Part shown: in pieces, positions 8,711 through 32,466 of the stretch
How the letters are laid out: the number at the start of each line of letters is the position of its first letter
Numbering within the stretch: position 1 is the first letter of the stretch
Source of the DNA: Saccharofermentans sp.
GTDB taxonomy: Bacteria; Bacillota; Clostridia; Saccharofermentanales; Saccharofermentanaceae
Direction: 5' to 3'
DNA length: 62,830 nt
Assembly: GCA_024683485.1 (NCBI GenBank)
Contig: JAIKYD010000031.1
Coordinates: 1 to 62,830 of the forward strand
The notes under the pieces: model-generated
Seen by the model: only the letters and a program-made list of their open reading frames with translations
Databases searched by the model: none
Told to the model about the DNA's origin: nothing
Made by a program: the position numbers and the translations under genes

Positions 8711-11245
8711 ATGTTTGTAAGAAGACCCGAGTATTTTGCTGCAGCGGTTCTTGGCGGAGTCCTTGCAATCGCCTCGGCAGCTTTTACGGTAATAAACCTT
8801 GATACAGGGATCAGCTGTCCTGACAGAAAGACGATGAAAGAAGCAGATGATATCGTTGCCCGGGCTGGAATGCTGACATCAAGTTCAGAAGCTGAGATAA
8901 GGATCGCAAAATCACGTGTTGAGGATGGACTGGTATCATGCGGAGATTATGTTATATCGGTAATGACTTCGCCCGAGTATTTACTGACTGGAGTTTCAGA
9001 TGAGAAGTTTGCTTCTGATCTTTGTAATGTAATATATGGTGAAACACGCAGTGATGAGGTCGGTCTTATAATTGATGATCTGAAAGATAATTCGAGGACT
9101 GTTGCAATAGACAGAGCGATGGCTTCAGAGAACAAAGATCTAAAAGCTTCCGGTACTCCATCCGGCAAGGGTTCGGTCATCTCTGATGTCAGTCTCGTTT
9201 CGGCCATTGATTCGTCTGAACAGTATACAGTTGGGATTAGAGAAGCAAAGGGATCTTATACCGCTACAGGAGATGATGTCAGGACTGATTTCTTCGTTGA
9301 CGGTTCACTTTATTATGGTTATCTAAGATTTGATGACGGTAATAACGGCAAGGGTTCTGACCGCCGTGAATTTGTGTTGTCTTGGGATACTGCCGATTGT
9401 GTTCCGGGAAAACATGAAGTATATGCTCTCCTTAGAAGTTCAGACGGGCGTGGAACGGTTATTTCCGGGGGAGAGATAACGATTCCGAAGAAAGTGTCTA
9501 TTTATCCGGATTCTGTAGCTGAAGGTCTGATCCCTAGCGGGAATCAGACTGCCTGGTACATGATCGACTGCGGTGATGATGACTGCTATATTGATTTTGC
9601 CGGATTATCGGATGATATAAGGGTATCGCTTTATGACCTTAAGGGCGATCTGATAGGTGCCAACGAGAACCCGGGTATACCATATGCGATGCTGAGGGGA
9701 AGGAAGCAGGATACTGATGCAGTCTCGCGCGAGACCGGCATTTCAGGTGTATCCAACTGTTTCTATGTTTGTGTCAGCAGGACCGGCACTGGAAGTGATA
9801 TAGGCAAGGATATAGATTTTACTATGATCCAGTCTAAAGAATGTGCTTATTTTGACGGATGCTATATGGCGGTTACCGGAGATGACGGAAAAGGCAAAGT
9901 AAAGCTTACTGACATGAGCAATACAACTTATGAGGTTGAAAGGAAGAAAGCAGGGATCCTTCCGGTCAATGGTGCTCTCTCAGAATGTTATATTAATGAT
10001 TCCGCTCCTGATCAGTTCCTGGATATTTATCCTGAATTTGATTACCGTACACGTGATTATGCATATTACATGAACAGGACGGGCAGTATTGCTGTCAGAT
10101 GCAGTGCGCTTGAAGGTTATTCTGCAAGCGTTACTATTAAGGCTGATTCAAACGGTGATATATTCACTTTGGACCAGGGACAGCTTTATGAGATCCCTCA
10201 GGGTGAAACAGTCATTACCTGTACTGTCACAGGTTTTGACGGAACTTCAGAAGACTATTCTTTCTTTTTGTTGAATGGTGATGATGAAGGTGATTTCAGT
10301 GAGACTACGCTTTCCAAATTCCCTGCAAGTTATTACAGCGGACTTTGGCTTTTGCACAGTCTTAAGCCGGACTATTTTTTCACACCCTACTATACTAATC
10401 TTGCATTTGATACTGCACTTGCAGCAGAGGACAGCAAGGGAAGAAATCTAATCCAGAATTCCTCTTATCCGTCTTATGTTAAGCCTAACAGCCAGGTTTA
10501 CGATAAGCCTGACTGGATGGCAGCTAAGACTGAAGTTGTCAGTTATTATATGGATCCGAGAAATTTTTTTACTCCGGAAAGGATCTTTGCATTTGAGATG
10601 CTCGGATTTGATCCGAAGGTACACACAACTGACGGGGTCAGAGAGATAATCAGAGGATCATTTATGGATGGCTCCGCTGACTATGATTATGCTGAACTCA
10701 TTTATGCAGCCGGCGAGAAAGCCGGTGTGTCACCGTATTTTCTTGCAAGCAGGATTATTCAGGAAATGGGGTATAACGGAGAGTCGGCTTTGTGCAGAGG
10801 TGACCTTTCCGATTTTGAAGGTTATTACAACTACTACAATATAGGAGCTTATGCAACAACTGAACCCGGTGGTGCTGTTGTAAACGGTGCGAAATACGCC
10901 CAGTGGGGAAGAGAGTGGGAAGCTCAGGAGATAACGGATACAGAGGCTTCATACCTTCTTCCGTGGACATCTGTTGAACGGGCTATAGCAGGTGGTGCTA
11001 TTTGGATCGCAACAGGATATATAGATAAAGGCCAGAATACACTGTATTTCCAGAAGTTCGATGTTCTTGATGATGGCACTGACAAGTATAATCATCAGTA
11101 TGCCCAGAATATTATGATGGCTTATTCTGAAGGTATGAGGTATTACAGAAGTTATGATTCAATAGGCATGACAGATGCCGGATTTGAATTCATAATACCT
11201 GTATACAACAATATGCCTGATTCATATGGGAGCCTCCCTGAATGA
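8711..11245 (+). CDS. Membrane-anchored N-acetylglucosaminidase-like wall hydrolase
   Basis: This 844-residue exported protein starts with one hydrophobic segment (about residues 8-30) that probably anchors it. A long central region is beta-rich. A cadherin-like Ig-type module (about 455-530, ending in YSFFLLNG) leads into a C-terminal glucosaminidase domain (about 545-815). That domain carries the clostridial signatures YYMDPRNFF, ASRIIQEMG with Glu685 as likely catalytic acid, and NYYNIGAY. The family cuts GlcNAc-MurNAc bonds in peptidoglycan. GGGAGG lies 12 bases before the ATG. The stop overlaps the next start by four bases, so both are likely made together. The N-terminal 450 residues match no family I recognise. 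Confidence 0.8.
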   Translation: MFVRRPEYFAAAVLGGVLAIASAAFTVINLDTGISCPDRKTMKEADDIVARAGMLTSSSEAEIRIAKSRVEDGLVSCGDYVISVMTSPEYLLTGVSDEKFASDLCNVIYGETRSDEVGLIIDDLKDNSRTVAIDRAMASENKDLKASGTPSGKGSVISDVSLVSAIDSSEQYTVGIREAKGSYTATGDDVRTDFFVDGSLYYGYLRFDDGNNGKGSDRREFVLSWDTADCVPGKHEVYALLRSSDGRGTVISGGEITIPKKVSIYPDSVAEGLIPSGNQTAWYMIDCGDDDCYIDFAGLSDDIRVSLYDLKGDLIGANENPGIPYAMLRGRKQDTDAVSRETGISGVSNCFYVCVSRTGTGSDIGKDIDFTMIQSKECAYFDGCYMAVTGDDGKGKVKLTDMSNTTYEVERKKAGILPVNGALSECYINDSAPDQFLDIYPEFDYRTRDYAYYMNRTGSIAVRCSALEGYSASVTIKADSNGDIFTLDQGQLYEIPQGETVITCTVTGFDGTSEDYSFFLLNGDDEGDFSETTLSKFPASYYSGLWLLHSLKPDYFFTPYYTNLAFDTALAAEDSKGRNLIQNSSYPSYVKPNSQVYDKPDWMAAKTEVVSYYMDPRNFFTPERIFAFEMLGFDPKVHTTDGVREIIRGSFMDGSADYDYAELIYAAGEKAGVSPYFLASRIIQEMGYNGESALCRGDLSDFEGYYNYYNIGAYATTEPGGAVVNGAKYAQWGREWEAQEITDTEASYLLPWTSVERAIAGGAIWIATGYIDKGQNTLYFQKFDVLDDGTDKYNHQYAQNIMMAYSEGMRYYRSYDSIGMTDAGFEFIIPVYNNMPDSYGSLPE

Positions 11246-12720
11246 GAAGTGTTTTTGACAGGATAATTAAAAAAATGTTTGCAAAAGTGATTGCAGTTAT
11301 GCTTGTGGTCATTTTTGTTGCTTCTGCCTGTCTTATGTGCCTGACATTAAGAGCAAATGCTGATTCTGATGTCGTTATATCGGCGACCACCAGACAGACA
11401 AATGTCGGTCCCGGTGATATCCTGATCGTAGATGTCGTAGCGAACAGACTGCCTGGAGTCACGGAATTTGGTCCTGTCGTATTCAATTTTGATTCGGATA
11501 AAGCTGAATATGTAGCTTTCGAACAGGGCGAAGAACTCTCGAATTATGTGTTCAATGAGACTCAGAACGATGGTGTTTTGTCGATCATCGGCATGGATCA
11601 GATGATGAATATCAGCACTGATATTAATGGCGAAGACGTTGTTTCAGCATCTTTCTATTCAGAGTTTCAGGTTGTCTTGTTTACGATTACTTTGAGGCTT
11701 TTACCAGACAGTAACGGCGAGATCAACTGCTGGATAAGTGATACCGGTGAATTCATTGCAGTGGATGAAAGCATTTCGACGGATATAGGCAGCGGAATAA
11801 CACTTCCTGTCAGCAGAAGCGGTCTGTCAAGTGATGCGACTTTGGCTTCGTTGAAGATAAGAGGCGCCACGATTACGCCGGAATTTAACCCCAATATTAC
11901 AGAGTACAGCTGTTCCGTTGAACGTTCAGTAACAGAGGTTCAGGTCAGCGTGTTGGCGAGTAATCTATGGGCGGCGATCATTATCGATGGCAACCAGCAT
12001 CTCAATATGGGTGACAATATTGTCAATATAAATGTAACAGCACAGGACGGTATCAGCCGTATGCGGTATACGATCCATGTCCTGCGTAAAGAGAGTAATG
12101 TTCCTGAGGACGCTTCGCTTGTTGATATGGACGGAAATACTTACACATTTGTGGATGCTCCAGAAGATGCGCAAGTCCCTGCAGGATTTGTACAAACGAC
12201 CAGAGTTATAAACGGATACAGCGTGCCGGTTTATGTCAGGGATGGAGTAACAAGTATACTTTTATATATGTTTGACGGAACACAGTCACCGGGATTTTAT
12301 CTTTATAACAGCACAGCGAAAACCGTTATGAGATATGAGCCTGAGAATACAATAATAGAGACTTCTTCTATTCTTAAAGTGACAGAGGTTCCTTCAGATA
12401 TTGTAATCCCTGATGAGTTCAAACCGGATGAGTTTGACACAGGTTCTATGGTGTTATCAGGTTATTCCAATAATGATGGCGATTTTATCGTTTATCTTTC
12501 TGATGAGAACGGCAGCAAGGATTTCTATTTTTATGATAAGCTCAGCGGTTCGATCAGTCTGTACAGATTTGCGGACAAAAAGGCGGAGATATTGTACTCA
12601 TATCTGTTTGATGTTTTTCTTGTAATTGCTATTATTGAGGCGGTCATTATAACGATTACCGTTTATATCGTAAGAAGAATGGTCTCAGAGAGAACAAATC
12701 CGAGACCAAAGAGGGTATAA
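11242..12720 (+). CDS. Membrane protein with cohesin-like and cadherin-like modules
   Basis: This 492-residue protein begins with a signal peptide (hydrophobic core about 12-33, likely cut after RANA). Next comes a cohesin-like beta domain (about 40-185), with VGPGDILIVDVVANRL and the VVFNFDSDKAEYV pattern. A cadherin-like Ig module (about 190-285) runs from ATLASLKIRGATITPEFNP to RYTIHVLRKE. After a further region of about 160 residues, a C-terminal transmembrane helix (about 455-478) ends in a basic cytoplasmic tail. It overlaps the wall hydrolase gene by ATGA. Cohesin-type folds bind dockerins in cellulosomes but also occur as generic surface modules, so no partner can be named. Confidence 0.7.
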   Translation: MRSVFDRIIKKMFAKVIAVMLVVIFVASACLMCLTLRANADSDVVISATTRQTNVGPGDILIVDVVANRLPGVTEFGPVVFNFDSDKAEYVAFEQGEELSNYVFNETQNDGVLSIIGMDQMMNISTDINGEDVVSASFYSEFQVVLFTITLRLLPDSNGEINCWISDTGEFIAVDESISTDIGSGITLPVSRSGLSSDATLASLKIRGATITPEFNPNITEYSCSVERSVTEVQVSVLASNLWAAIIIDGNQHLNMGDNIVNINVTAQDGISRMRYTIHVLRKESNVPEDASLVDMDGNTYTFVDAPEDAQVPAGFVQTTRVINGYSVPVYVRDGVTSILLYMFDGTQSPGFYLYNSTAKTVMRYEPENTIIETSSILKVTEVPSDIVIPDEFKPDEFDTGSMVLSGYSNNDGDFIVYLSDENGSKDFYFYDKLSGSISLYRFADKKAEILYSYLFDVFLVIAIIEAVIITITVYIVRRMVSERTNPRPKRV

Positions 12721-12732
12721 AGGAAGAGAAGC

Positions 12733-13317
12733 ATGGATATAAAGACAATCATATTCGGAGATAAAAGCCTTACCGAGAAACAGGAGAAGAAGCGCAAGCT
12801 TTTTATGTATCTTGTCAGTGGAGGTCTTACCACGGCAGCTAACTGGATAGTCTATATCCTTTTTGATCTTCTGGTAAGAGCGGATATGATGGTATCGGTT
12901 CTTAATTTTGAGTTTTCTCTCAAGATTGCCGTAAAGCAGATCGTGGGCTGGATAGTTGCTGTTATAGTTGCTTATTTCCTTAACAGGATCACGGTGTTCA
13001 GATCCAAGGGAAACATCGTAAGAGAGCTTATTACTTTTGCCGGCGCAAGAGTCCTTTCTTTTCTCGTTCTGGAATTGGGCGTGATGTATCTGATGATATG
13101 GATTTGCGAGGCAATTACGGGTGTTTCTGCCTCAACACCGATGACTTATATAGGTTCGTTTGCATTTACTTATGATTATCTTGTTAAACTTATTAACTGC
13201 ATATTTGTTATCATAGCCAACTATGTCTTGAGTAAACTTATGGTCTTCAAGAAGAAGGATATGGTGGATTATAAAGCGGAAGAAGATAAGGAAGACGGTT
13301 CTTCCGGGGAAGCGTAA
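12733..13317 (+). CDS. GtrA-like four-helix membrane protein
   Basis: This 194-residue protein has four predicted membrane helices and the GtrA family pattern: FMYLVSGGLTTAANWIVYILFDLL near the N-terminus and VAYFLNRITVF after helix 2. GtrA proteins are thought to help move polyprenyl-linked sugars across the membrane. The C-terminus is charged (Asp/Glu/Lys). It begins 12 bases after the cohesin-like gene, with GGAAGAG upstream, and folC starts five bases after its stop. Its substrate is unknown. Confidence 0.82.
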   Translation: MDIKTIIFGDKSLTEKQEKKRKLFMYLVSGGLTTAANWIVYILFDLLVRADMMVSVLNFEFSLKIAVKQIVGWIVAVIVAYFLNRITVFRSKGNIVRELITFAGARVLSFLVLELGVMYLMIWICEAITGVSASTPMTYIGSFAFTYDYLVKLINCIFVIIANYVLSKLMVFKKKDMVDYKAEEDKEDGSSGEA

Positions 13318-13322
13318 AGCTG

Positions 13323-14714
13323 ATGTCTGATCACGGTATGCCTGAGCTCCTTAAGGGAGCATTGCAGTTTGGAATCAAACCCGGACTTGAGAGAATAAGC
13401 GAGCTTATGAGACTCCTTGGGAATCCGCAGGACAGTTTCAGATCTGTTCATATTGCGGGAACCAACGGAAAAGGTTCCGTGGCAACATTTATATCTTCAA
13501 TAATGGCTGCCGGAGGCAGTAAAGTCGGAGTATTTACATCTCCATATCTTGAGAGGTTTTCTGAACGTATCAGGATCATTGACGGAAAAAAGGGACTTGA
13601 AGAATACGTCAGGGACGACAGTTACGGAGAGATCAATGATGTTGATCTTTCAAGATACTCTGTCATGGTAAAGCAGGCTAAGGATAAGATGCTGTCCGGC
13701 GGGACCTTTGATGAACCTACAGAATTTGAACTGATCACAGCTATTTGTTTTCTTTATTTTGCAGACCGGAAGGTCGATATTGCAGTGCTTGAGACCGGAC
13801 TTGGCGGAAGGCTTGATTCAACAAACATTATTAAGGATCCACTGGTTACGGTCATCACGGCGATAGGCCTTGATCACTGCGGAGTATTGGGAAATACGGT
13901 CTCTGAGATAACAGGTGAAAAGGCCGGGATATTCAAAAAAGGAGCTCCCTGTGTTTGTTTTGATCCGGAACTCATGATCCTGCCCGAAGATATGAAGAAT
14001 GATGTAAGGAATACTCTTGTTTCCAAGGCGCGCGAAAAGAATGCTGATATTACTTTTGCAGGGAATTCCGAAGCATATGGCAGCGCAAGATTTACTGAAG
14101 ACGGACAGATGGAATTCAAATATGGTGATGTTATATATGTCACTGCACTTAACGGCAGGCATCAGATCGGGAATGCGGTTACAGCAATAGAAGCCTGCAG
14201 GAAATGCGGGGTGCCGGAAACTGCAATAAAGGAAGGAATAGCTTTCGCTAGATGGAAGAGCAGAGCTGAGATACTCAGTATTGATCCCACGGTCATTATT
14301 GACGGAGGTCATAATCCGCAGGGTGCTGCAAGTCTCGGTGAGACAATGAATGAGATGCTCGGGGGATCGCTTAAAGGCAAACCTGTAAGACTTCTCATGG
14401 GCGTTATGGCTGACAAGGATGTTCAGGGTATACTTGAGGCTTATAAAGCCTGTGGTCTGAATATAAGAAGTGCAGTAACAGTGATGCCGGACAACCCCAG
14501 AAGCGAGCCTGCCGATGTTCTCGCACAGAAAATTAATTATGTGTATAATATCAGCGGCGATTTGACGGCCTGCCAGAATGCTGAAGAAGGCACAAAGCTG
14601 GCATACGGGAAATCGGTCAAAGACGGTATGATACTTCTTGCGACCGGATCGCTTTATCTTACGGGTCAGATAAGAGCAACTCTGAAAGGATTGATCAGAT
14701 GCACGACTATTTAA
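13323..14714 (+). CDS. folC: Folylpolyglutamate synthase / dihydrofolate synthase
   Basis: This 463-residue Mur-ligase-type enzyme adds glutamate to folates, and in many Bacillota also makes dihydrofolate from dihydropteroate. It shows the P-loop HIAGTNGKGSVATF (about 40-53), TSPYLERFSERIRI, ETGLGGRLDSTN, GLDHCGVLG and the C-terminal domain marker IIDGGHNPQGA. Length is slightly above the usual 420-440. The next gene overlaps its last 16 bases. It sits between envelope genes and thrC, with no obvious pathway link to either. Confidence 0.93.
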   Translation: MSDHGMPELLKGALQFGIKPGLERISELMRLLGNPQDSFRSVHIAGTNGKGSVATFISSIMAAGGSKVGVFTSPYLERFSERIRIIDGKKGLEEYVRDDSYGEINDVDLSRYSVMVKQAKDKMLSGGTFDEPTEFELITAICFLYFADRKVDIAVLETGLGGRLDSTNIIKDPLVTVITAIGLDHCGVLGNTVSEITGEKAGIFKKGAPCVCFDPELMILPEDMKNDVRNTLVSKAREKNADITFAGNSEAYGSARFTEDGQMEFKYGDVIYVTALNGRHQIGNAVTAIEACRKCGVPETAIKEGIAFARWKSRAEILSIDPTVIIDGGHNPQGAASLGETMNEMLGGSLKGKPVRLLMGVMADKDVQGILEAYKACGLNIRSAVTVMPDNPRSEPADVLAQKINYVYNISGDLTACQNAEEGTKLAYGKSVKDGMILLATGSLYLTGQIRATLKGLIRCTTI

Positions 14715-15688
14715 GCTTATGTATGATGATACAGCCTATAAATGAGTCGAGTCTCATTCTTTTCGATGTAAGCAACGAAGAGAAATCCCGTATAGTCCGC
14801 CAATATAACAGGGCATTGCAGAACAGCCAGGGCGATGGAACCGATGTTGCCCAGATATTCTTAAAACCGTTGATCTCACAGTATCAGAAATGGGGAGATC
14901 CGGCTTTGATCTTCGGACTCTGCCTTGCAAGGGAAGGTCAGTTCAAAAGAGCTGAAGGAAGTCTTGCTTTTGCTATCCAGGGCGTTCTTGGAACTGAACA
15001 GTATCTTACTATTGCCCAGGAAGCGTTAAGAATGGTACGTGAGGATATCAAGAATCCTCCGGCAGATCTTCCGCCTGCTGATATTGCCGGCAAACTCAAG
15101 AATGCACAGATGGCCTCAGGTTCATCTCCTGCTGCTAGGGCCAATTTCCAGGCACCGATCCTTACCAAGGCTCAAAAGAGTTCGGAAGCTCCGCAGATGG
15201 CTTCGAGCAAGGAGCGGAGAGATATAATGATGCGTTCGGGAGGTGTTGCAGACGAACTGCCGGATGATTCAATAGATATTGAGGATATCAAATCTCCGAG
15301 AGAGCGGATGAAATCTTTAGTCATAGTTGGCATAGTAATTTTGTCACTCTTGTTAGTGACGTTGCTTATCATATTTGGTATTATTCCTCTGGTAAAACAG
15401 ATTGAGGACGGTGCAGCTGCCCGGGATAAGATTGAATATCTGCACGGAGAGTTCTATAAGAACAGATATGATCCTGAGGTGTCGGCAATAATGAGTGCCT
15501 ACGAATCAAGTTACGGAACGGTCTGGACACGGAATTCTCAGGATCAGGAAATCACTGTGGCTGAGACGACAACAGAAGAAACGGCTACGACTCCTGAAGA
15601 GACACAGCTTACGGCATCGCTTGCCGAGACTACGACTCAGGCAGAAGAGACAACAGAACCTGAGGAGACTCAAGGAGAGGATGAATGA
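14699..15688 (+). CDS. Single-pass membrane protein with helical cytoplasmic part and Thr/Glu-rich tail
   Basis: This 329-residue protein is not assigned to a family. The N-terminal 115 residues look like TPR-type helices (YQKWGDPALIFGLCLAREGQFKRAEGSLAFAIQ, quoted as two adjacent helices). A low-complexity linker follows, then one transmembrane helix at about 207-232, a short helical segment, and a C-terminal tail of about 55 residues dominated by Thr and Glu. The start at 14699 lies inside the folC 3' end with AAAGGA eight bases before it; ATGs at 14723 and 14726 are alternatives. The stop overlaps thrC by ATGA. The architecture suggests a sensor or scaffold with an exposed tail, which is inference. 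Confidence 0.7.
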   Translation: MHDYLSLCMMIQPINESSLILFDVSNEEKSRIVRQYNRALQNSQGDGTDVAQIFLKPLISQYQKWGDPALIFGLCLAREGQFKRAEGSLAFAIQGVLGTEQYLTIAQEALRMVREDIKNPPADLPPADIAGKLKNAQMASGSSPAARANFQAPILTKAQKSSEAPQMASSKERRDIMMRSGGVADELPDDSIDIEDIKSPRERMKSLVIVGIVILSLLLVTLLIIFGIIPLVKQIEDGAAARDKIEYLHGEFYKNRYDPEVSAIMSAYESSYGTVWTRNSQDQEITVAETTTEETATTPEETQLTASLAETTTQAEETTEPEETQGEDE

Positions 15689-17190
15689 AATATATAAGCA
15701 CAAGAGGGTATGAAGGAAATTTTTCTTCAAGCGAAGCGATCATAAGAGGTATCGCTCCTGATGGCGGACTCTTTGTTCCCGAGTCGATCCCACAGCTCAC
15801 AAAAGAAGATCTGGAAGCTATGCAGACAATGCAGTTTTATCAGCTTTCCGCTTTTGTTCTGTCAAAATTCCTTACAGATTTTACTGAAGCAGAGCTCCTT
15901 GAATATACAAAGCAGGCTTATTCTGAGGATAAGTGGGGTGAGAATCCTGTTCCTTTGGTTCAGCTAAATGAATATAACGACAGGGAATATATCCTTGAAC
16001 TCTGGCACGGGCCAACATGTGCATTTAAGGATGTAGCACTTCAACTTCTGCCTCACCTTATGACAGCTTCTGCTAAGAAGACAGGAACTGCTAAAAAGAT
16101 ATGTATACTTACTGCCACATCCGGAGATACCGGCAAGGCGGCACTTGAGGGATTTAAAGATCTTCCCGGAACGGAGATAATAGTTTTCTATCCGACAGGC
16201 GGTGTATCTGAAGCGCAGAAACTGCAAATGGTTACGACCGGCGGAGACAATACCCATGTTATTGCCGTTAACGGATGCTTTGATGATGCCCAGACAGGTG
16301 TTAAGAATATCTTCGGCAACAAGACGCTGGCAGAGACACTTGACAATAACGGCATCATGCTTTCGTCTGCCAATTCGATCAACTGGGGACGTCTTGCGCC
16401 TCAGATTGCTTATTATGTTTATTCTTATGTTGAACTGATAAGAAAAGGAAAGATGGATCTGACCGAGTCATTCAACATTGTTGTGCCGACGGGCAATTTC
16501 GGAAATATCCTTGCCGCCTGGTTTGCCAAGCAGATGGGCATTCCGGTCCATAAACTTATCTGTGCATCCAACCGCAATAAGGTGCTTTGTGATTTCTTCT
16601 CAAGCGGTATCTATGACCGTAACAGGGAGTTTTACAAGACAACCTCACCTTCTATGGATATCCTGATCTCATCCAATCTCGAGAGACTTTTGTTTGAGAT
16701 TGCGGATAAGGATCCGGTAAAGGTGAAGGAATGGATGAGACAGCTCAATGAAGACGGAAAGTACAGCGTTGACAAGGATACGCTGAAAGCTCTTCAGAGA
16801 CTGTTTGTCGGCGGATTTGCCGATGAGACCGGAGTCTCAAAGACGATCCTTGAAGTATATGACAGGACGGATAATGTTATCGATCCGCACACTGCTGTTG
16901 GATTTAATATCTACGGAAGATATCACCAGAGATCGGGAGATGAGAGCAAAACGGTATTTGCTTCCACCGCTTCTCCGTTTAAGTTTGCCCCCGCTGTTAT
17001 GGATGCATTGAGGGGCGCAGGTTATTCCAATGATAAGTCAATACCGGATATCATTTCAGAACTTGCAGAGGAAAGCGGACTTGTCATTCCGCAGTCAATA
17101 TCTGAACTGCCGTCGCTTGAAGTAAGGCATAAGGATGTTATCGAGAAAGAGCAGATGGAGAGCAAAGTCCGCGAGATCCTTCTCGATTGA
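15685..17190 (+). CDS. thrC: Threonine synthase
   Basis: This 501-residue PLP enzyme converts O-phosphohomoserine to threonine. It belongs to the long class typical of E. coli ThrC, with the N-terminal MKYISTRGYEGNFSSSEAI-type opening, HGPTCAFKDVALQ with PLP lysine Lys115, TATSGDTGKAAL, PTGGVSEAQKLQM, SSANSINWGRLAPQ and VPTGNFGN. It is translationally coupled to the preceding membrane-protein gene by a four-base overlap. A strong hairpin terminator follows ten bases after the stop. Confidence 0.96.
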   Translation: MKYISTRGYEGNFSSSEAIIRGIAPDGGLFVPESIPQLTKEDLEAMQTMQFYQLSAFVLSKFLTDFTEAELLEYTKQAYSEDKWGENPVPLVQLNEYNDREYILELWHGPTCAFKDVALQLLPHLMTASAKKTGTAKKICILTATSGDTGKAALEGFKDLPGTEIIVFYPTGGVSEAQKLQMVTTGGDNTHVIAVNGCFDDAQTGVKNIFGNKTLAETLDNNGIMLSSANSINWGRLAPQIAYYVYSYVELIRKGKMDLTESFNIVVPTGNFGNILAAWFAKQMGIPVHKLICASNRNKVLCDFFSSGIYDRNREFYKTTSPSMDILISSNLERLLFEIADKDPVKVKEWMRQLNEDGKYSVDKDTLKALQRLFVGGFADETGVSKTILEVYDRTDNVIDPHTAVGFNIYGRYHQRSGDESKTVFASTASPFKFAPAVMDALRGAGYSNDKSIPDIISELAEESGLVIPQSISELPSLEVRHKDVIEKEQMESKVREILLD

Positions 17191-17200
17191 TAAGCAATCT

Positions 17201-17233
17201 AAGGCTTTTTCTTTTACGGAAAAAGCCTTTTTT
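17201..17233 (+). terminator. Strong intrinsic terminator between thrC and carA
   Basis: AAGGCTTTTTC (17201-17211) pairs perfectly with GAAAAAGCCTT (17219-17229) over a 7-base loop, followed by a run of six T (17228-17233). The carA ribosome-binding site begins about seven bases later. That leaves no room for a promoter between the terminator and carA, so it may act as an attenuator or a partial terminator. Confidence 0.85.
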
Positions 17234-17251: not shown

Positions 17252-18334
17252 ATGAAACGTTATCTTGTTTTGGAGAACGGCAACATTTACGAAGGTGAGG
17301 CAATGGGTGCCGGTGGAAGTGTTATATCGGAGATCGTATTTACGACTGCGATGACAGCATATCTGGAGACACTGACTGATCCGAGTTACAAAGGTCAGGC
17401 AGTTGTTCAGACTTTCCCCCTGATAGGTAACTACGGAATCATCACACCGGATATGGAGAGCGGCAAGGTAAACGTATCGGGTTATATCGTAAGAGAAGTA
17501 TGTGAGCTCCCTTCCAATTTCAGGTGCGAAAAGGATATGGATACTTTCCTTAAGGAGCAGGGTATTCCCGGAATCAAGGGGATCGATACGAGAGCTCTGA
17601 CAAAGAGTTTGAGAGAATCAGGTACGATGAACGGTGCAATATGTGACCGTCCTGATGAGTTCTCGTTAGATGAGATCAAGGCATACAGGATCAAGGATCC
17701 GGTTGAGGAAGTAACGACAAAAGAGGAACAGGTGGTTCCCGCAAAGGACGAAGTAAAGTTCAGGGTTGCCATGTTCGACTTCGGTATCAAGTCAAACATC
17801 GCAAGAGAACTTGCCAAGAGAGGCTGCGAAGTTCATCTTCTTCCAGCAGATACATCTTCAGCCAAGGTTAAGGAGATCGATCCTGACGGCATCTTCCTGT
17901 CTAACGGTCCGGGAGATCCTGAGGATAATATAAAGGCAATTGAGACGATGAAGGAGATCAAGGACTGGGGCATACCCGTCATGGGTATCTGCTTAGGTCA
18001 CCAGATCCTTGCGCTTGCTCACGGATTTAAGACTTCCAAGCTTAAGTATGGCCACAGAGGTGCAAATCACCCTGTTAAGAATCTGGAGACCGGAAGAGTT
18101 TATATCACATCACAAAACCACGGTTATCAGGTTCTGAGTGATTCGATCGATACAAAGGTCGCGAAAGAATACTTCGTTAACGTAAACGACGGAACAAATG
18201 AAGGAATCAAGTATCTTGATAAGCCCGCATACTCCGTACAGTTCCATCCGGAAGCCTGCGGAGGCCCGAAGGATACGGAATTTCTTTTCGATATGTTTAT
18301 TCAGATGATGTCAGAGAAGAAGGGGGACAACTAA
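17252..18334 (+). CDS. carA: Carbamoyl-phosphate synthase small (glutaminase) subunit
   Basis: This 360-residue protein supplies ammonia from glutamine to CarB for carbamoyl phosphate, the precursor of arginine and pyrimidines. The N-terminal domain starts MKRYLVLENGNIYEGEA. The class I glutaminase has the nucleophile elbow MGICLGHQILALA, and later NHGYQV and the catalytic HPEA (FHPEACGG). The start is ATG 17252, nine bases after GGGGG. An in-frame extension back to 17135 runs through the terminator and is rejected. It ends one base before the carB-dapF start. Confidence 0.95.
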   Translation: MKRYLVLENGNIYEGEAMGAGGSVISEIVFTTAMTAYLETLTDPSYKGQAVVQTFPLIGNYGIITPDMESGKVNVSGYIVREVCELPSNFRCEKDMDTFLKEQGIPGIKGIDTRALTKSLRESGTMNGAICDRPDEFSLDEIKAYRIKDPVEEVTTKEEQVVPAKDEVKFRVAMFDFGIKSNIARELAKRGCEVHLLPADTSSAKVKEIDPDGIFLSNGPGDPEDNIKAIETMKEIKDWGIPVMGICLGHQILALAHGFKTSKLKYGHRGANHPVKNLETGRVYITSQNHGYQVLSDSIDTKVAKEYFVNVNDGTNEGIKYLDKPAYSVQFHPEACGGPKDTEFLFDMFIQMMSEKKGDN

Positions 18335-18335
18335 T

Positions 18336-21300
18336 ATGCCGCTTGATAAAACTATAAGAAAAGTTCTTGTTATCGGATCAGGTCCTATCGTAATCGGACA
18401 GGCAGCCGAATTTGACTACGCAGGCACGCAGGCCTGCAGAGCTCTGCGTGAAGACGGCATTGAGATCGTTCTTTTGAACTCCAACCCCGCTACCATCATG
18501 ACTGATAAGTCAATGGCAGATAAGATCTATATCGAGCCGCTGACACTTACGACTGTTAAGAGAATCATCGAGACAGAAAAGCCAGACTCGATTCTCTCAG
18601 GTCTGGGCGGACAGACAGCTCTTACACTCTGTATGCAGCTCGCCAAGGAAGGTTTCCTCGAATCCCACGGCGTTAAGCTCTTAGGTTCATCACCCGAGTG
18701 TATTGACAAGGCCGAAGACCGTCAGATGTTCAAGGACACGATGGAAGCGATCGGCCAGCCCTGCATCCCTTCAAAGGTTGTAACGACAGTTGAGGATGCG
18801 ATGGATTTTGCAAAGGAGATCGGCTATCCGGTTATCGTAAGACCTGCATTCACATTAGGCGGAACGGGCGGCGGTATCGCAAACAATGAAGACGAACTCC
18901 ATGAGATCGCAAGAAACGGTCTTGCTCTGTCTCCAATCACACAGGTACTTATCGAGAGAGGTATCGCAGGATGGAAAGAGATCGAGTTCGAAGTCATTAG
19001 AGATAAGGACGGCAACGTAATCACAGTCTGCTCAATGGAGAACCTGGATCCTGTCGGAGTACATACAGGTGACTCAATAGTTATCGCTCCCGCAGTAACG
19101 CTCTCAGACAAAGAGTATCAGATGCTCAGAACTGCTTCACTTAACATAATCGAAGCACTGGGCGTTGAAGGCGGTTGTAACTGCCAGTTTGCTCTTAATC
19201 CCAACTCATTCGAGTATGCGGTAATCGAGGTTAACCCGAGAGTTTCCAGATCATCTGCTCTTGCATCCAAGGCTACTGGTTACCCGATCGCAAAGGTGGC
19301 TACGAAGATTGCTATCGGTTACAGACTCCACGAGATCGTAAATGCCGTAACTGGTCATACATATGCAGCTTTCGAGCCTGCACTGGATTATGTTGCAGTT
19401 AAGTATCCGAAGTGGCCTTTTGACAAGTTCGTATATGCCAAGAGAAATCTCGGAACACAGATGAAGGCGACAGGCGAAGTCATGGCAATCTCTGATTCAT
19501 TTGAGAGCGCTCTCATGAAAGCGGTAAGAGGCGCAGAGATCTCTGCTGATACTCTTCACTTAAAGAAAATGGAAGATGTTGCAGACGAAGATCTAATGGA
19601 GCGCTGCGTTACGCCTACTGACGAGAGACTCTTCTATGTTGCTGAAGCAATCAGAAGAGGCGCCCCGATCGAGAAGATCAATAAAGAGACAAAGATCGAT
19701 ATGTGGTTTCTTGCCAAGATCAAGAATCTCATTGATTTTGAGAAGGCTATTACAGATAAAGAGATCTCTTTCGATGAGTATGTAAAGGCTAAAAAACTCG
19801 GTTTCACAGACAAGGCAATCGCAAGAATTACAGGCAAGCCTGTTACTTACGAACTCAAGCCCACATTCAAGATGGTTGATACTTGCGCTGGTGAGTTCGA
19901 AGCGCATACACCTTATTTCTATGCTACATTCAACAGACCTGAGGAAGGCGGCGAGAACGAAGCTGACTTCGAGAAGGCAGGCGATAAGGATAAGCAGACG
20001 GTAATTGTATTCGGTTCAGGTCCGATCAGGATCGGTCAGGGTATCGAGTTTGACTATGCCGCAGTTCACTGCGTGCACGCATTAAGAGATCTGGGCTACA
20101 GAGTTGTTATCGTAAACAACAACCCTGAGACAGTATCCACAGACTTCGATACTGGCGACAGACTGTATTTCGAGCCTCTCACACCTGAAGACGTAATGAA
20201 TATCGTTCATCAGGAAAAACCGTTCGGCGTGGTTGTTGCATTCGGCGGACAGACAGCTATCAAACTCACGAAAACTCTTTCCGAGAATAACATCAACATC
20301 ATAGGAACCTCAGCAGATTCCATCGATATGGCAGAAGACCGTGAGAGATTTGATGAGCTCTTAGAGCGTCTCGGAATCGCAAGACCGAAGGGATTCTCCG
20401 TCCTTACATTGGATGAAGCTCTTAAGGCTGCCAACACACTCGAATATCCTGTGCTCTTAAGACCTTCTTATGTACTTGGCGGTCAGAATATGATCATCGC
20501 CTTCAACGACGAAGACGTTAATGAGTACATGAAGATCATCCTCGCGCAAGGCATTGAGAACCCTGTGCTCATCGATAAGTACATTCAGGGCAAGGAGATC
20601 GAAGTAGACGCTATCTACGACGGTAAGGATGTCCTTATCCCCGGCCTCATGGAGCACGTTGAGCGTGCGGGAATCCACTCCGGTGACTCTATAGCGATGT
20701 ATCCTGCAAAGCATATCTACGATGATATGTACAAGAATCTTGCAGATACGACAATCGCGCTCTGCGACGGACTCAAGTCAACAGGTATCGTAAACATACA
20801 GTACATCGTTAAGGACAACAGAATCTATGTAATCGAGGTTAACCCGAGAGCTTCAAGAACCGTTCCTTACATGAGCAAGGTAACAGGCATCCCGATGGTA
20901 GATGTTGCCATCGAAGTAAGCCTCGGAACAAAGTTAGCAGACATGGATTACGGTACCGGATTCTACAGACAGTCACCTTACACGGCTGTTAAGGTTCCTG
21001 TGTTCTCGTTTGAGAAACTTACTGACGTTGATACACAGCTCGGACCTGAAATGAAGTCCACGGGCGAAGTATTAGGTGTCGGCAGAAATCTTTCCGAAGC
21101 ACTCTACAAGGGTCTCGTTGCAGCAGGCTACAAGATGTACAAGCGTGGCGGTGTTTTCATCACGGTAAGAAATTCAGACAAGATGGAAATCGTCGAGATC
21201 GCGAAGAAGTTCGATTCAATGGGTTTCAAGCTCTATGCAACACACGGCACTGCAGATGCGCTTAGACAGGCGGGAATGGAAGTTACTGCCGTATCCAAGA

Positions 21301-22394
21301 TCCATGAGTCTGATGAGAATAACACAATGTCTCTTATCGAGAGCGGCAAGATCAACTACATCATCTCAACATCTGCAAAGGGCAGACTCCCTGCAAGAGA
21401 CTCAGTAAAGCTCCGCCGCCGTGCGGTAATGCTCGGTATCCCTTGCCTTACTGCTATTGATACTGCAGACGCTCTTGCTGATTCACTCATGAGCCACTTT
21501 TCCGAGATCAATACAGAACTTGTTGATATCAACAACATGCGTGACAAGAGACGTAAGATCAACTTCATCAAGATGCAGGGTGCAGGTAACGATTATATCT
21601 ACATAGACTGCATGGAGAGCATGGTATCTTCACCTGAATCACTGTCAGTCTACATGAGTGACAGACACTTCGGTGTAGGCGGTGACGGTATCGTTCTCAT
21701 CGCACCTTCGAAGGTTGCTGACTGTAAAATGATCATGTACAACCTGGACGGTTCAGAGGGCATGATGTGCGGTAACGCGATCAGATGCGTTGCGAAATAT
21801 ATGTACGATGAACGCGGTCACAAGAAGAGACATATGAAGATCGAGACAAAGAGCGGAATCAAGACTCTCGAACTCATGACTTTGGGCGGCGAGGTTGCAA
21901 GAGTTAAGGTCGACATGGGCAAGGCAGAGCTTAACCCGCCTAAGATTCCCTGCACGCTCCCGGGTGATACTGCTGTCAATGTTCCGGTAAATATAGATGG
22001 TGATGAATATAATATTACAGCTGTATCTATGGGTAACCCTCACGCTGTAGTATTCACAGATCTTGTCGATGTGCTCGATCTCAATACCATCGGTCCCAAG
22101 TTCGAATACTCAACGGATATCTTCCCTGAGAGAGTAAACACAGAGTTCGTCAAAGTCATCGATGACCATACACTCAAGATGAGAGTGTGGGAGAGAGGTT
22201 CAGGTGAGACTATGGCATGCGGCACAGGAGCGTGCGCTACAGTTGTAGCCGCATGTGAGAACGGTTACTGCAAAAAGGGTGAAGACATCAGAGTAATCCT
22301 GAAGGGCGGAAGTCTGATCATCAGATATACCGATGATGCCGTGTTTATGACCGGGAACTGCGCAAAGGTTTTCGAAGGTACTATGGAGGTCTGA
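18336..22394 (+). CDS. carB-dapF: CarB-DapF fusion: carbamoyl-phosphate synthase large subunit joined to diaminopimelate epimerase
   Basis: A single open frame of 1352 residues encodes two complete enzymes. Residues 1-1066 are CarB: the first ATP-grasp half starts KVLVIGSGPIVIGQAAEFDYAG (split after VIG), the second starts VIVFGSGPIRIGQGIEFDYA near 560, and an MGS-type regulatory domain lies at about 940-1066. Residues about 1073-1352 are DapF, from KINFIKMQGAGNDYIYID, with both catalytic cysteines: Cys1145 in MMCGNAIRC and Cys1295 in ACGTGACA. The linker (about 1055-1072) is short. Met1068 has no ribosome-binding site upstream, so separate DapF translation is unlikely. DapF turns LL-DAP into meso-DAP. 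carA precedes by one base and the HAD gene overlaps the stop. Confidence 0.95.
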   Translation: MPLDKTIRKVLVIGSGPIVIGQAAEFDYAGTQACRALREDGIEIVLLNSNPATIMTDKSMADKIYIEPLTLTTVKRIIETEKPDSILSGLGGQTALTLCMQLAKEGFLESHGVKLLGSSPECIDKAEDRQMFKDTMEAIGQPCIPSKVVTTVEDAMDFAKEIGYPVIVRPAFTLGGTGGGIANNEDELHEIARNGLALSPITQVLIERGIAGWKEIEFEVIRDKDGNVITVCSMENLDPVGVHTGDSIVIAPAVTLSDKEYQMLRTASLNIIEALGVEGGCNCQFALNPNSFEYAVIEVNPRVSRSSALASKATGYPIAKVATKIAIGYRLHEIVNAVTGHTYAAFEPALDYVAVKYPKWPFDKFVYAKRNLGTQMKATGEVMAISDSFESALMKAVRGAEISADTLHLKKMEDVADEDLMERCVTPTDERLFYVAEAIRRGAPIEKINKETKIDMWFLAKIKNLIDFEKAITDKEISFDEYVKAKKLGFTDKAIARITGKPVTYELKPTFKMVDTCAGEFEAHTPYFYATFNRPEEGGENEADFEKAGDKDKQTVIVFGSGPIRIGQGIEFDYAAVHCVHALRDLGYRVVIVNNNPETVSTDFDTGDRLYFEPLTPEDVMNIVHQEKPFGVVVAFGGQTAIKLTKTLSENNINIIGTSADSIDMAEDRERFDELLERLGIARPKGFSVLTLDEALKAANTLEYPVLLRPSYVLGGQNMIIAFNDEDVNEYMKIILAQGIENPVLIDKYIQGKEIEVDAIYDGKDVLIPGLMEHVERAGIHSGDSIAMYPAKHIYDDMYKNLADTTIALCDGLKSTGIVNIQYIVKDNRIYVIEVNPRASRTVPYMSKVTGIPMVDVAIEVSLGTKLADMDYGTGFYRQSPYTAVKVPVFSFEKLTDVDTQLGPEMKSTGEVLGVGRNLSEALYKGLVAAGYKMYKRGGVFITVRNSDKMEIVEIAKKFDSMGFKLYATHGTADALRQAGMEVTAVSKIHESDENNTMSLIESGKINYIISTSAKGRLPARDSVKLRRRAVMLGIPCLTAIDTADALADSLMSHFSEINTELVDINNMRDKRRKINFIKMQGAGNDYIYIDCMESMVSSPESLSVYMSDRHFGVGGDGIVLIAPSKVADCKMIMYNLDGSEGMMCGNAIRCVAKYMYDERGHKKRHMKIETKSGIKTLELMTLGGEVARVKVDMGKAELNPPKIPCTLPGDTAVNVPVNIDGDEYNITAVSMGNPHAVVFTDLVDVLDLNTIGPKFEYSTDIFPERVNTEFVKVIDDHTLKMRVWERGSGETMACGTGACATVVAACENGYCKKGEDIRVILKGGSLIIRYTDDAVFMTGNCAKVFEGTMEV

Positions 22395-23056
22395 TGATAA
22401 AGCCAGACAGAACATTCAAAGCAGCTATTTTTGACATGGACGGACTGATCCTCGATTCAGAGAGGACAGTCCTGAAATGTTGGGAAATGATAGGTGAGAA
22501 ATACGGCTTTAAGGATATTGTTACTTACGGCATCAGTGTCATAGGCAAGAATAAAAAGGCCACTGTCGATGAGTTCGAGAGAGTCTACGGAGAACCCGGC
22601 GACCGTTACGAACGTGAGCTCCGTGATATATATAACGGTCTGGCCGCAGAGGGTAAAGTTCCGTTAAAGCCCCATACTATAGAACTTTTGAGTTCGATGA
22701 AAAACGCCGGCATGAAGATCTCAATTGCATCTTCTTCAACAAGAGAGGAAGTTACTTCACAGATGGCCGCTCTCGGTGCTCTGCCTTATTTTGACACCTG
22801 TGTCTGCGGAGACCAGGTAACCAGATCAAAGCCCGATCCGGAGATATTCCTTCTTGCCTGCGATGCTTTGGGTGTAAAGCCTGAAGAGGGTGTAGGACTT
22901 GAAGATTCTTTCAACGGAGTAAGATCATGCAAGGCATCGGGACTTTATACGATAATGGTTCCCGACATCATTCAGCCTGATGATGAGATAAAAGAACTGG
23001 CAGATGCCATCCTTCCATCTTTAAAAGACGTTCAGGTCTTTTTAAACCTCAAGTGA
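22394..23056 (+). CDS. HAD-superfamily phosphatase (beta-phosphoglucomutase-like)
   Basis: This 220-residue HAD hydrolase has motif I FDMDGLILDSERT (nucleophile Asp in the first 20 residues), motif II SIASSSTREEV, motif III lysine in SKPDPEIFLLAC and motif IV GLEDSFNGV. The cap is the small helical type of phosphoglucomutases and sugar or nucleotide phosphatases. Its ATG overlaps the last base of carB-dapF, with GGAGG four to five bases upstream, so it is the third gene of the carA operon. Its 3' end overlaps the convergent transporter gene by 25 bases. The substrate cannot be predicted. Confidence 0.88.
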   Translation: MIKPDRTFKAAIFDMDGLILDSERTVLKCWEMIGEKYGFKDIVTYGISVIGKNKKATVDEFERVYGEPGDRYERELRDIYNGLAAEGKVPLKPHTIELLSSMKNAGMKISIASSSTREEVTSQMAALGALPYFDTCVCGDQVTRSKPDPEIFLLACDALGVKPEEGVGLEDSFNGVRSCKASGLYTIMVPDIIQPDDEIKELADAILPSLKDVQVFLNLK

Positions 23057-31251: not shown

Positions 31252-32436
31252 TCAGAGTGTCCTGAAGAGATCACAAGCTTTCTTAGTATTCTCATATGAC
31301 CCGAAAGCTGTGAGACGGAAAAATCCGCGGCCATTCTCTCCGAATCCTTCACCAGGAGTTCCAACGATACCGAATCTTGTCAGGATAGAGTCAAAGAATT
31401 CCCATCCTCCCATGTCACCGGGACACTTGAGCCAGATGTAGGGAGAATTTACTCCGCCGGTGAAATAGATTCCTCTATCTTTGAAAACATTTGCGAGCAT
31501 TGTGGCATTGCGCTTGTAATATGCGATGTTCGCAAGACAGTCTTCGAATCCCTTGCCTGAGAGCGAGGCTGCTGCGCCTTTCTGTGTGATATAGGAGACT
31601 CCGTTGAATTTTGTTGCCTGCCGTCTGGCCCAGAATTTTGAAAGTTTTATTCCGCCTGCCTCCAATGTGTCCGGTACTACCGTCCAGCCGCATCTTAAGC
31701 CTGTGAAGCCGGCAAATTTAGAGAATGATGATATCTCGACAGCACATGATTCCGCTCCGGGGATCTCATATATCGTGTGGGGCTTGTCTTCAGATATGAA
31801 TGCTTCATATGCCGCATCGAAAATGATGAGTGATCCGGTCCTGAGTGCAAAGTTTACCCAGGCTGTAAGTCCTTCATAACTGTAGACTGCACCGGTCGGA
31901 TTGTTTGGTGAACAGATATAGATTACAGACGGTTCGATATCAGTATCTGCAGGCGGTTCCGGAAGGAAGTCATTATCCTTTGTTCCATTGACAAAAGAGA
32001 TCTTCCTGCCATTCATTAAATTTGAATCGACATAAACAGGGTAAACGGGATCCGGAATGATGACCGGATTGTCACCAAGTATATCAGGAAGGTTACCGAG
32101 ATCGCTCTTGGCACCGTCAGAAACGTATATGCTTTCCGGAGTCACAGAATCTGCTCCGATAGCTTTGTAGTGACCAGATATTGCGCTTCTTAAGAATTCA
32201 TAACCATATTCGGGCGGATAACCGTGGAAGGAATCTTTTGATGCCATTTCTTTAACTGCTTCCTCCATAGCGGAAGTGATCGAAGCAGGAATTGGCAGGG
32301 TGACATCACCTATTCCCATTCTGATGATCTCTCTGCCGGGGTTTTCCTCCTGAAACCTCTTAACCCGCTTTGCTATATCCGAGAAAAGATAAGTTTCTTT
32401 AACATCCAGAAAGTGTTCATTCAATTTGATGTCCAT
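31252..32436 (-). CDS. dapL: LL-diaminopimelate aminotransferase
   Basis: This 394-residue class I/II PLP aminotransferase converts tetrahydrodipicolinate directly to LL-DAP. Family markers are the opening ETYLFSDIAKRVKRF, MGIGDVTLPIP, the DapL-type SDGAKSDLGN, CSPNNPTGAVY, and the PLP lysine in SSFSKFAGFTGLRCGW. The ATG at 32436 lies nine bases after AGAGG; a TTG nine bases earlier is a possible but weaker start. Its product is the substrate of the DapF domain fused to CarB. Confidence 0.93.
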   Translation of the reverse strand: MDIKLNEHFLDVKETYLFSDIAKRVKRFQEENPGREIIRMGIGDVTLPIPASITSAMEEAVKEMASKDSFHGYPPEYGYEFLRSAISGHYKAIGADSVTPESIYVSDGAKSDLGNLPDILGDNPVIIPDPVYPVYVDSNLMNGRKISFVNGTKDNDFLPEPPADTDIEPSVIYICSPNNPTGAVYSYEGLTAWVNFALRTGSLIIFDAAYEAFISEDKPHTIYEIPGAESCAVEISSFSKFAGFTGLRCGWTVVPDTLEAGGIKLSKFWARRQATKFNGVSYITQKGAAASLSGKGFEDCLANIAYYKRNATMLANVFKDRGIYFTGGVNSPYIWLKCPGDMGGWEFFDSILTRFGIVGTPGEGFGENGRGFFRLTAFGSYENTKKACDLFRTL

Positions 32437-32466
32437 AGTTTTCAACCTCTAAATTAATATGGAAAC

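Follow-up and report, generated by a model that had tools for sequence, protein, structure and literature searches.

Why would the large subunit of carbamoyl-phosphate synthase (CPSase), CarB, and diaminopimelate (DAP) epimerase, DapF, be made as a single protein, and what does the second half do once it is attached to the first? These questions are raised by a gene in a stretch of 62,830 nucleotides from Saccharofermentans sp. (contig JAIKYD010000031.1 of assembly GCA_024683485.1), called the window below, in which a sequence-only reading had recognised a natural CarB-DapF fusion of two complete enzymes in one frame. CarB provides carbamoyl phosphate for arginine and pyrimidines, and DapF a precursor of lysine and of the cell wall. 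Our analysis upholds this description and finds the same frame in many other Clostridia. We also found that part of the fused DapF modules have lost a catalytic cysteine, and these modules appear to be under purifying selection. This suggests that the module also serves CPSase in a non-catalytic way.

Two enzymes in one frame

The fusion gene has the following parts.

18336..22394, + strand: carB::dapF fusion gene, 1352 aa, a single frame with no internal stop
18336..21494, + strand: CarB part, residues 1-1053 (NF003671, 1474 bits)
21186..21452, + strand: MGS effector domain, residues 951-1039 (PF02142)
21495..21557, + strand: linker, residues 1054-1074, made of the CarB C-terminal tail (TELVDINNMR) and a few more residues
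21558..22391, + strand: DapF part, residues 1075-1352 (TIGR00652; sequence and fold matches to DapF in the PDB)
21768..21770, + strand: codon of catalytic Cys1145
22218..22220, + strand: codon of catalytic Cys1295

The match of the CarB part to the NCBIfam model NF003671 lies well above its cut-off of 599 bits, and the model of the CPSase large subunit, TIGR01369, scores 1448 bits (cut-off 1027). Pfam recognises CPSase D1 and D2 twice each, D3, MGS and two DAP_epimerase domains, so that the oligomerisation domain and both ATP-grasp halves are seen. We compared 21 ATP-grasp and active-site positions with E. coli CarB: the window has the same residue at 18, and the three that differ (208, 754 and 756) are also variable among 18 aligned stand-alone CarBs. 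The second enzyme is equally complete: TIGR00652 matches residues 1075-1350 with 273 bits (curated cut-off 114.65), and both catalytic cysteines, which we take to be positions 73 and 217 of H. influenzae DapF, are present together with every pocket residue checked. With the sequence of both active sites intact, the protein of the window probably has both activities.

The sequence-only reading had also held that the DapF part lacks a start signal of its own, and we agree. Upstream of Met1068, the sole in-frame ATG of the linker, there is no Shine-Dalgarno-like sequence, and an internal start yielding free DapF is unlikely in the window. In the AlphaFold2 model, the two blocks covering residues 1050-1069 have pLDDT values of 58 and 51.

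Distribution of the fusion

The window's assembly is fragmented and 82% complete, and one might suspect that sequencing or assembly joined two separate genes. Yet the same uninterrupted frame is found in dozens of genomes, including that of Ruminococcus bicirculans 80/3 (L068), whose record is titled complete sequence. This excludes an artefact, to which we give next to no chance. A stop or frameshift at the junction, which the earlier reading had named as the thing to look for, is absent from the window.

Among 80 loci from named genomes encoding a close DapF relative, CarB and DapF share one frame in 62. The other 18 comprise 17 stand-alone DapFs and one locus cut by a contig end (L039). In one locus counted as fused (L050:4810-8855), a frameshift splits CarB near residue 920, away from the junction, and is likely a sequencing error. 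The record names are mostly Saccharofermentans, Ruminococcus, Ruminococcaceae and other Clostridia. Within the window's genus, a match spans both halves in 44 of 59 genomes (in G024 and G007 it begins at a contig end), and the matches listed include no such case from the order's 40 other genomes. A sample of 393 genomes of the class contains at least 45 with the fusion, counting the window's own, spread over 23 family codes (among them G370 and G107, whose matches run up to or begin at the edge of a contig). In a sample of the phylum, at least 15 of 398 genomes from outside the class add five further families. The suggestion that related Clostridia might share the fusion was thus well founded.

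Because the named and the other collections overlap and the same genome may recur, the counts of loci are not independent of one another. Representatives come from clustering at 80% (DapF) and 85% (CarB). Two window pieces (L001, L002) and L039 were dropped before counting, as were, for the CarB tree, L050 because of its frameshift and the partial L065 and L071.

In the protein database, 7990 candidates of 743-2366 aa were scored, of which 6901 match the DapF part; the best 120 proteins matching it all carry CPSase domains. Where source names are given for fused proteins, they mention carbamoyl-phosphate synthase only. Organisms with the fusion can consequently look as if they had no dapF, and the lysine and peptidoglycan pathways reconstructed for Clostridia of gut and rumen may contain errors.

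Loss of catalytic cysteines in fused DapF modules

What is new here is the loss of catalytic cysteines in fused modules. At least one is missing in 14 of 37 fused DapF representatives versus none of 32 stand-alone ones, a comparison set in which canonical DapFs are favoured, 20 stand-alone stretches having been picked from best-scoring matches. The difference has a Fisher p of 4e-5, which is not a clean probability because the rows are related and the sampling uneven. C1145 is lost in 13 of the 14, replaced by Ala, Ser or Gly; L151 is altered at C1295, and L150 and L152 at both positions, which leaves C1295 in 11. These losses require at least four changes on the tree, and the cysteine change is common to several families. 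In the DapF of C. glutamicum, the single changes C83A and C221A almost abolish activity, and changes of pocket residues do likewise (PMC5296763). The equivalence between its residues and those of the fused modules is our own assignment.

In the largest cysteine-less set, the rest of the pocket was retained. In the 120 protein clusters nearest L149, out of 7157 matches, C1145 is Ala in 117 and Gly in three, and all 120 keep N1085, N1136, N1147, N1234, H1236, N1268, E1286, R1287, C1295 and G1296; G1146 and T1297 are kept in 119. For comparison, 121 window-like proteins keep all 13 active-site positions. The cysteine-less set retains 46 of 53 columns that are invariant in DapF. The ratio dN/dS is 0.025-0.139 in eight pairs of cysteine-less modules, 0-0.069 in seven pairs of DapF modules with both cysteines, and 0.018-0.067 in 15 pairs of CarB halves, with synonymous sites near saturation in several pairs. 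These values suggest that cysteine-less modules are under purifying selection in the eight pairs tested.

Other routes to meso-DAP

How do these organisms make meso-DAP? We searched 34 fused genomes outside the window's family, 20 with altered cysteines and 14 with both, for a stand-alone DapF and for meso-DAP dehydrogenase (Ddh). A stand-alone DapF was present in 14 of the 20 versus 2 of the 14 (Fisher p 0.0019, relatedness uncorrected), and the stand-alone DapFs read from 10 of these 16 genomes all keep both cysteines. Five of the other six cysteine-altered genomes have Ddh over the cut-off, and one (G394) has neither over the cut-off. Three genomes whose fused module has both cysteines (G101, G189 and G449; 93-98% complete) also have no stand-alone DapF and no Ddh over the cut-off; for this reason, their fused DapF is likely needed and active.

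In the window's own genome, Ddh is present (TIGR01921, 422 bits), as it is in all 10 other fused genomes of the genus that were tested. Fused DapF is then one of two meso-DAP routes there, and the idea that it is the only one was rejected. The sequence-only reading had proposed looking for a free-standing second dapF: neither this nor a second CarB was found in the window's assembly, 82% complete. Many genus-mates (among them L176 and L177) do have another CarB that is not fused, with an identity of about 44%.

The effector end of CPSase

The regulatory end of CPSase also differs between fused proteins. In the window, the equivalents of E. coli K954 (residue 949, just before the MGS domain), T977 and K993 are kept, and N1015 is Ser. 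The ornithine site of the E. coli enzyme (E783, E892, Y1040 and T1042) is kept at E783 and T1042 only, with Val for E892 and Cys for Y1040. According to PMC6245113, T977 and K993 are crucial for UMP inhibition and UMP binding, and judged by these two residues the window has a UMP-type site. Among 116 window-like proteins, K954 is kept in 110 and K993 in all, and T977 is Asn in 43. In the cysteine-less set (119 proteins), Tyr replaces K954 in 110, Asn K993 in 91, Tyr N1015 in 117 and Gly T1017 in 119, and T977 is kept in 118. Eight fused loci, all cysteine-less, adjoin argB, argD or argF, versus none of 115 two-cysteine loci (loci are redundant in this count and flank lengths vary). The regulatory end of CPSase has thus been refitted in one lineage. 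Cysteine loss and the change of the UMP site are not tied together everywhere, because other lineages (L118, L123, L127 and L136) have lost the cysteine and keep the residues of a UMP-type site.

Some of these proteins may also differ in their nitrogen source. Seven proteins of 1500-1512 aa (P0138, P0142, P0151, P0152, P0157, P0168 and P0176) join the N-terminal domain of CarA (PF00988) to CarB and to a DapF without C1145. The glutaminase domain is absent from their precomputed Pfam list, and they are possibly ammonia-dependent CPSases. CarA was not found in two of 36 genomes searched, G142 (L149; 95% complete) and G370 (L152; 93% complete), whose fusions may likewise use ammonia.

The C-terminus of CarB has received another partner in the same order. 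In L198:922-5127 and L199:913-5118, CarB has a C-terminal extension of 334 residues. That of L198 matches PyrK-like domains (DHODB Fe-S, FAD and NAD binding) and represents a different fusion at the same CarB end; the tail of L199 is nearly the same, the domain scan having been done on L198 only.

Genomic context and origin of the fusion

The genes around the fusion that bear on its origin and expression are these.

15685..17190, + strand: thrC, threonine synthase (TIGR00260, 229 bits)
17201..17229, + strand: 12-pair hairpin with a T run behind it, lying between thrC and carA and resembling a terminator or attenuator (consensus scan)
17252..18334, + strand: carA, glutaminase subunit, 360 aa (TIGR01368, 450 bits), ending 1 base before the fusion gene
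22394..23056, + strand: HAD-family phosphatase (PF13419), overlapping the fusion stop by one base
31252..32445, - strand: dapL, LL-diaminopimelate aminotransferase, which makes the DapF substrate (TIGR03542, 464 bits), about 8.9 kb from the fusion

The glutaminase partner of the window's CPSase is thus encoded directly upstream, and the phosphatase gene is likely on the same transcript as the fusion. The consensus scan that gave the hairpin found 12 such sites in the region versus 8.9 expected in shuffles. Neither the hairpin nor the sequence upstream of carA has an Rfam match to an RNA leader, and a known leader was set aside as an explanation. Further upstream of thrC, the region 8711-15688 encodes two proteins that no Pfam model matches, of 844 and 329 aa, and, by Pfam, a protein with a cadherin-like domain, a GtrA-like membrane protein and a protein resembling Mur ligases.

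The sequence-only reading had pointed to dapL some 9 kb away, and its presence near the fusion fits an origin from adjacent carA-carB-dapF-dapL genes. We propose that a stop codon was lost between neighbouring carB and dapF in a purF-carA-carB-dapF-dapL cluster. The CarB and DapF matches are separated by exactly 18 residues in 121 of 131 fused loci, with a junction consensus close to EINTELVDINNMR. Such a tail, for instance ELVDINTI or TELVDIMQL, also closes stand-alone CarBs, which identifies the linker as the native C-terminus of CarB. Of 41 loci with stand-alone dapF, 25 have dapL behind it (flank lengths vary), and in four the pair adjoins carA-carB: carA-carB comes first in L153 and L154, dapF-dapL in L155 and L156. 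In fused loci, dapL still lies 3' of the fusion in Ruminococcus-type and other loci, at times with pyrG, and purF at times lies 5' of carA. The locus L153 (1464-5558) has carA-carB, a single TAA, AGGAGG, dapF in the same frame and then dapL; this looks like the arrangement expected before fusion, although its CarB and DapF sit on other branches.

Did this happen once? The patchy distribution would lead one to expect several independent fusions; the trees and the common junction favour one origin, with weak support. One fusion event with later splits in some relatives is likely, judging from the common junction and from a gene order that explains the fusion. In the DapF tree, the fused DapFs lie on one side together with five stand-alone DapFs of the window's genus and its kin (support 84/89), and in the CarB tree the fused CarBs lie on one side with one stand-alone CarB (support 23). 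Such values leave a single origin weakly supported. A larger quick DapF tree, with 10 more stand-alone DapFs from fused genomes, places the solo rows L186, L077, L239 and L220 among the fused ones, and the DapF tree alone would not prove one origin. Some relatives have moreover dropped the module or its partner, L170 having CarB alone and L194-L197 and L040 DapF alone, which tells against the reading favoured below. In L196 (2212-3105), from the window's genus, dapF directly follows thrC, the two being separated in the window by carA and the CarB half; L196 may represent a natural removal of CPSase.

The proposed role of the DapF module

The reading that we favour, with middling confidence and the scales about level, is that of one bifunctional polypeptide whose DapF module likely serves CPSase non-catalytically as well. 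We infer this second role because the module outlives its own catalysis; in some lineages, it would be all that remains of DapF. The module would bind LL- or meso-DAP and binding would be felt by CPSase, or the module would shape the oligomer. A DAP sensor and a scaffold both fit, and the conservation of the pocket favours the sensor. Both DAP and uridine nucleotides are incorporated into UDP-MurNAc-peptides, which would give a link between DAP and CPSase a purpose. A more specific version, which we put forward tentatively, is that the CPSase of many Clostridia has a DAP-sensing allosteric domain derived from an epimerase, bifunctional at first and turned into a pure sensor in the arginine-operon lineage, with the cysteine replaced, the pocket frozen and the UMP site rebuilt. 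If true, carbamoyl phosphate supply would be tied to the levels of cell-wall and lysine precursors. More generally, if the DapF module regulates CPSase, an enzyme domain has become the regulatory domain of an unrelated enzyme, and the two-cysteine and cysteine-less forms, both extant, can be compared.

Several observations weigh against this reading. The models give no confident MGS-DapF interface (pTM 0.63 and 0.59), which does not favour a tight allosteric link and led us to drop a fixed interface. Pocket columns show no significant advantage in conservation over the other invariant columns (11 of 11 versus 35 of 41, p 0.32). L147, L150 and L151 have lost several pocket residues besides the cysteine, and L123 and L146 one each. 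DapF has a higher dN/dS than the CarB half in all eight cysteine-less pairs and in five of the seven two-cysteine pairs, and the bias of the stand-alone set towards canonical DapFs flatters the contrast in cysteine loss. Finally, some fused relatives could additionally make free DapF: a start at the DapF boundary with GAGG or AGGAG upstream occurs in 6 of 37 fused representatives (L043, L049, L119, L124, L125 and L138), and L128 has a similar site before a later Met.

The simplest alternative is that carB and dapF were joined merely as operon neighbours, giving a fixed 1:1 ratio and no cross-talk. Gene orders such as those of L153-L156, the low-confidence linker without a fixed interface, and the relatives in which the fusion was split or trimmed all suit it. 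Yet a module without its catalytic cysteine leaves no epimerase to co-express and still appears to be under purifying selection, which, for those lineages at least, makes a second role more plausible than one that merely sets the expression ratio; we find the passive explanation rather doubtful. A purely structural role, in which dimerisation of DapF pairs CPSase subunits and cysteine loss is neutral given another meso-DAP route, would account for the 46 invariant columns retained in the cysteine-less set and for L147, L150 and L151, which retain the module after losing pocket residues. The DapF of C. glutamicum works as a dimer (PMC5296763). A pure scaffold would not need the nearly complete conservation of the pocket in the 120 clusters, though the other invariant columns are nearly as well kept, and we consider this role unlikely on its own.

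Two further explanations appear improbable. Some enzymes of the proline-racemase fold, certain dehydratases, work with one base, and a one-cysteine module might similarly make a product other than meso-DAP. The retention of C1295 in most altered representatives and the DapF fold shared by hydroxyproline dehydratases in our fold matches agree with such new chemistry; the unchanged DAP-recognition residues of the 120 clusters do not, nor do L150 and L152, which lack both cysteines, and L151, which lacks the other one. We give it a slim chance, and the same holds for decay, that is, a fused DapF drifting towards loss once its job had passed to a stand-alone DapF or to Ddh. The other meso-DAP routes found in 19 of the 20 cysteine-altered genomes, the eroded look of L150 and L151, and a module dN/dS above that of CarB point in this direction. 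However, that dN/dS still does not exceed 0.139, the pocket is kept in the 120 clusters, and the cysteine change is common to several families.

Comparison with known systems

We found no description of a CarB-DapF fusion in the literature searched, which covered few subscription papers and no bioRxiv. DapF2 is described as a replacement of DapF in lysine pathways in passages of PMC9026213, whose main text does not contain the word "fusion" and whose available passages mention no CarB fusion. DapF2 and Ddh are separate enzymes that explain meso-DAP supply without an active DapF, and Ddh was found in this analysis.

The fused protein resembles E. coli CarB in domain order, in most of the active-site positions compared, in its MGS domain and in the adjoining carA, and differs by a DapF module of about 280 residues added at the C-terminus, directly after the effector domain. 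In the window, this module is like other DapFs in its full length, its two cysteines, the pocket residues checked and its fold. Unlike them, it is not free-standing, and a part of its fused relatives lack a catalytic cysteine.

Fusion of CPSase to other enzymes is itself familiar from CAD and from the fungal CPSase-ATCase-DHO proteins. The partners in these fusions act in the pathway of CPSase itself; DapF, in contrast, belongs to a different pathway and uses no product of CPSase. PMC6022934 lists CAD, fungal and fused glutaminase-synthase forms among the multidomain CPSases, and reports that the fused DHO domain of the fungal proteins can be inactive. A non-catalytic role of DapF has a precedent as well, because the inactive E. 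coli variant DapF(C73&217A) still binds and activates RppH (PMC4227774). That complex is non-covalent and involves another partner, whereas in the fusion described here DapF is covalently attached to CPSase.

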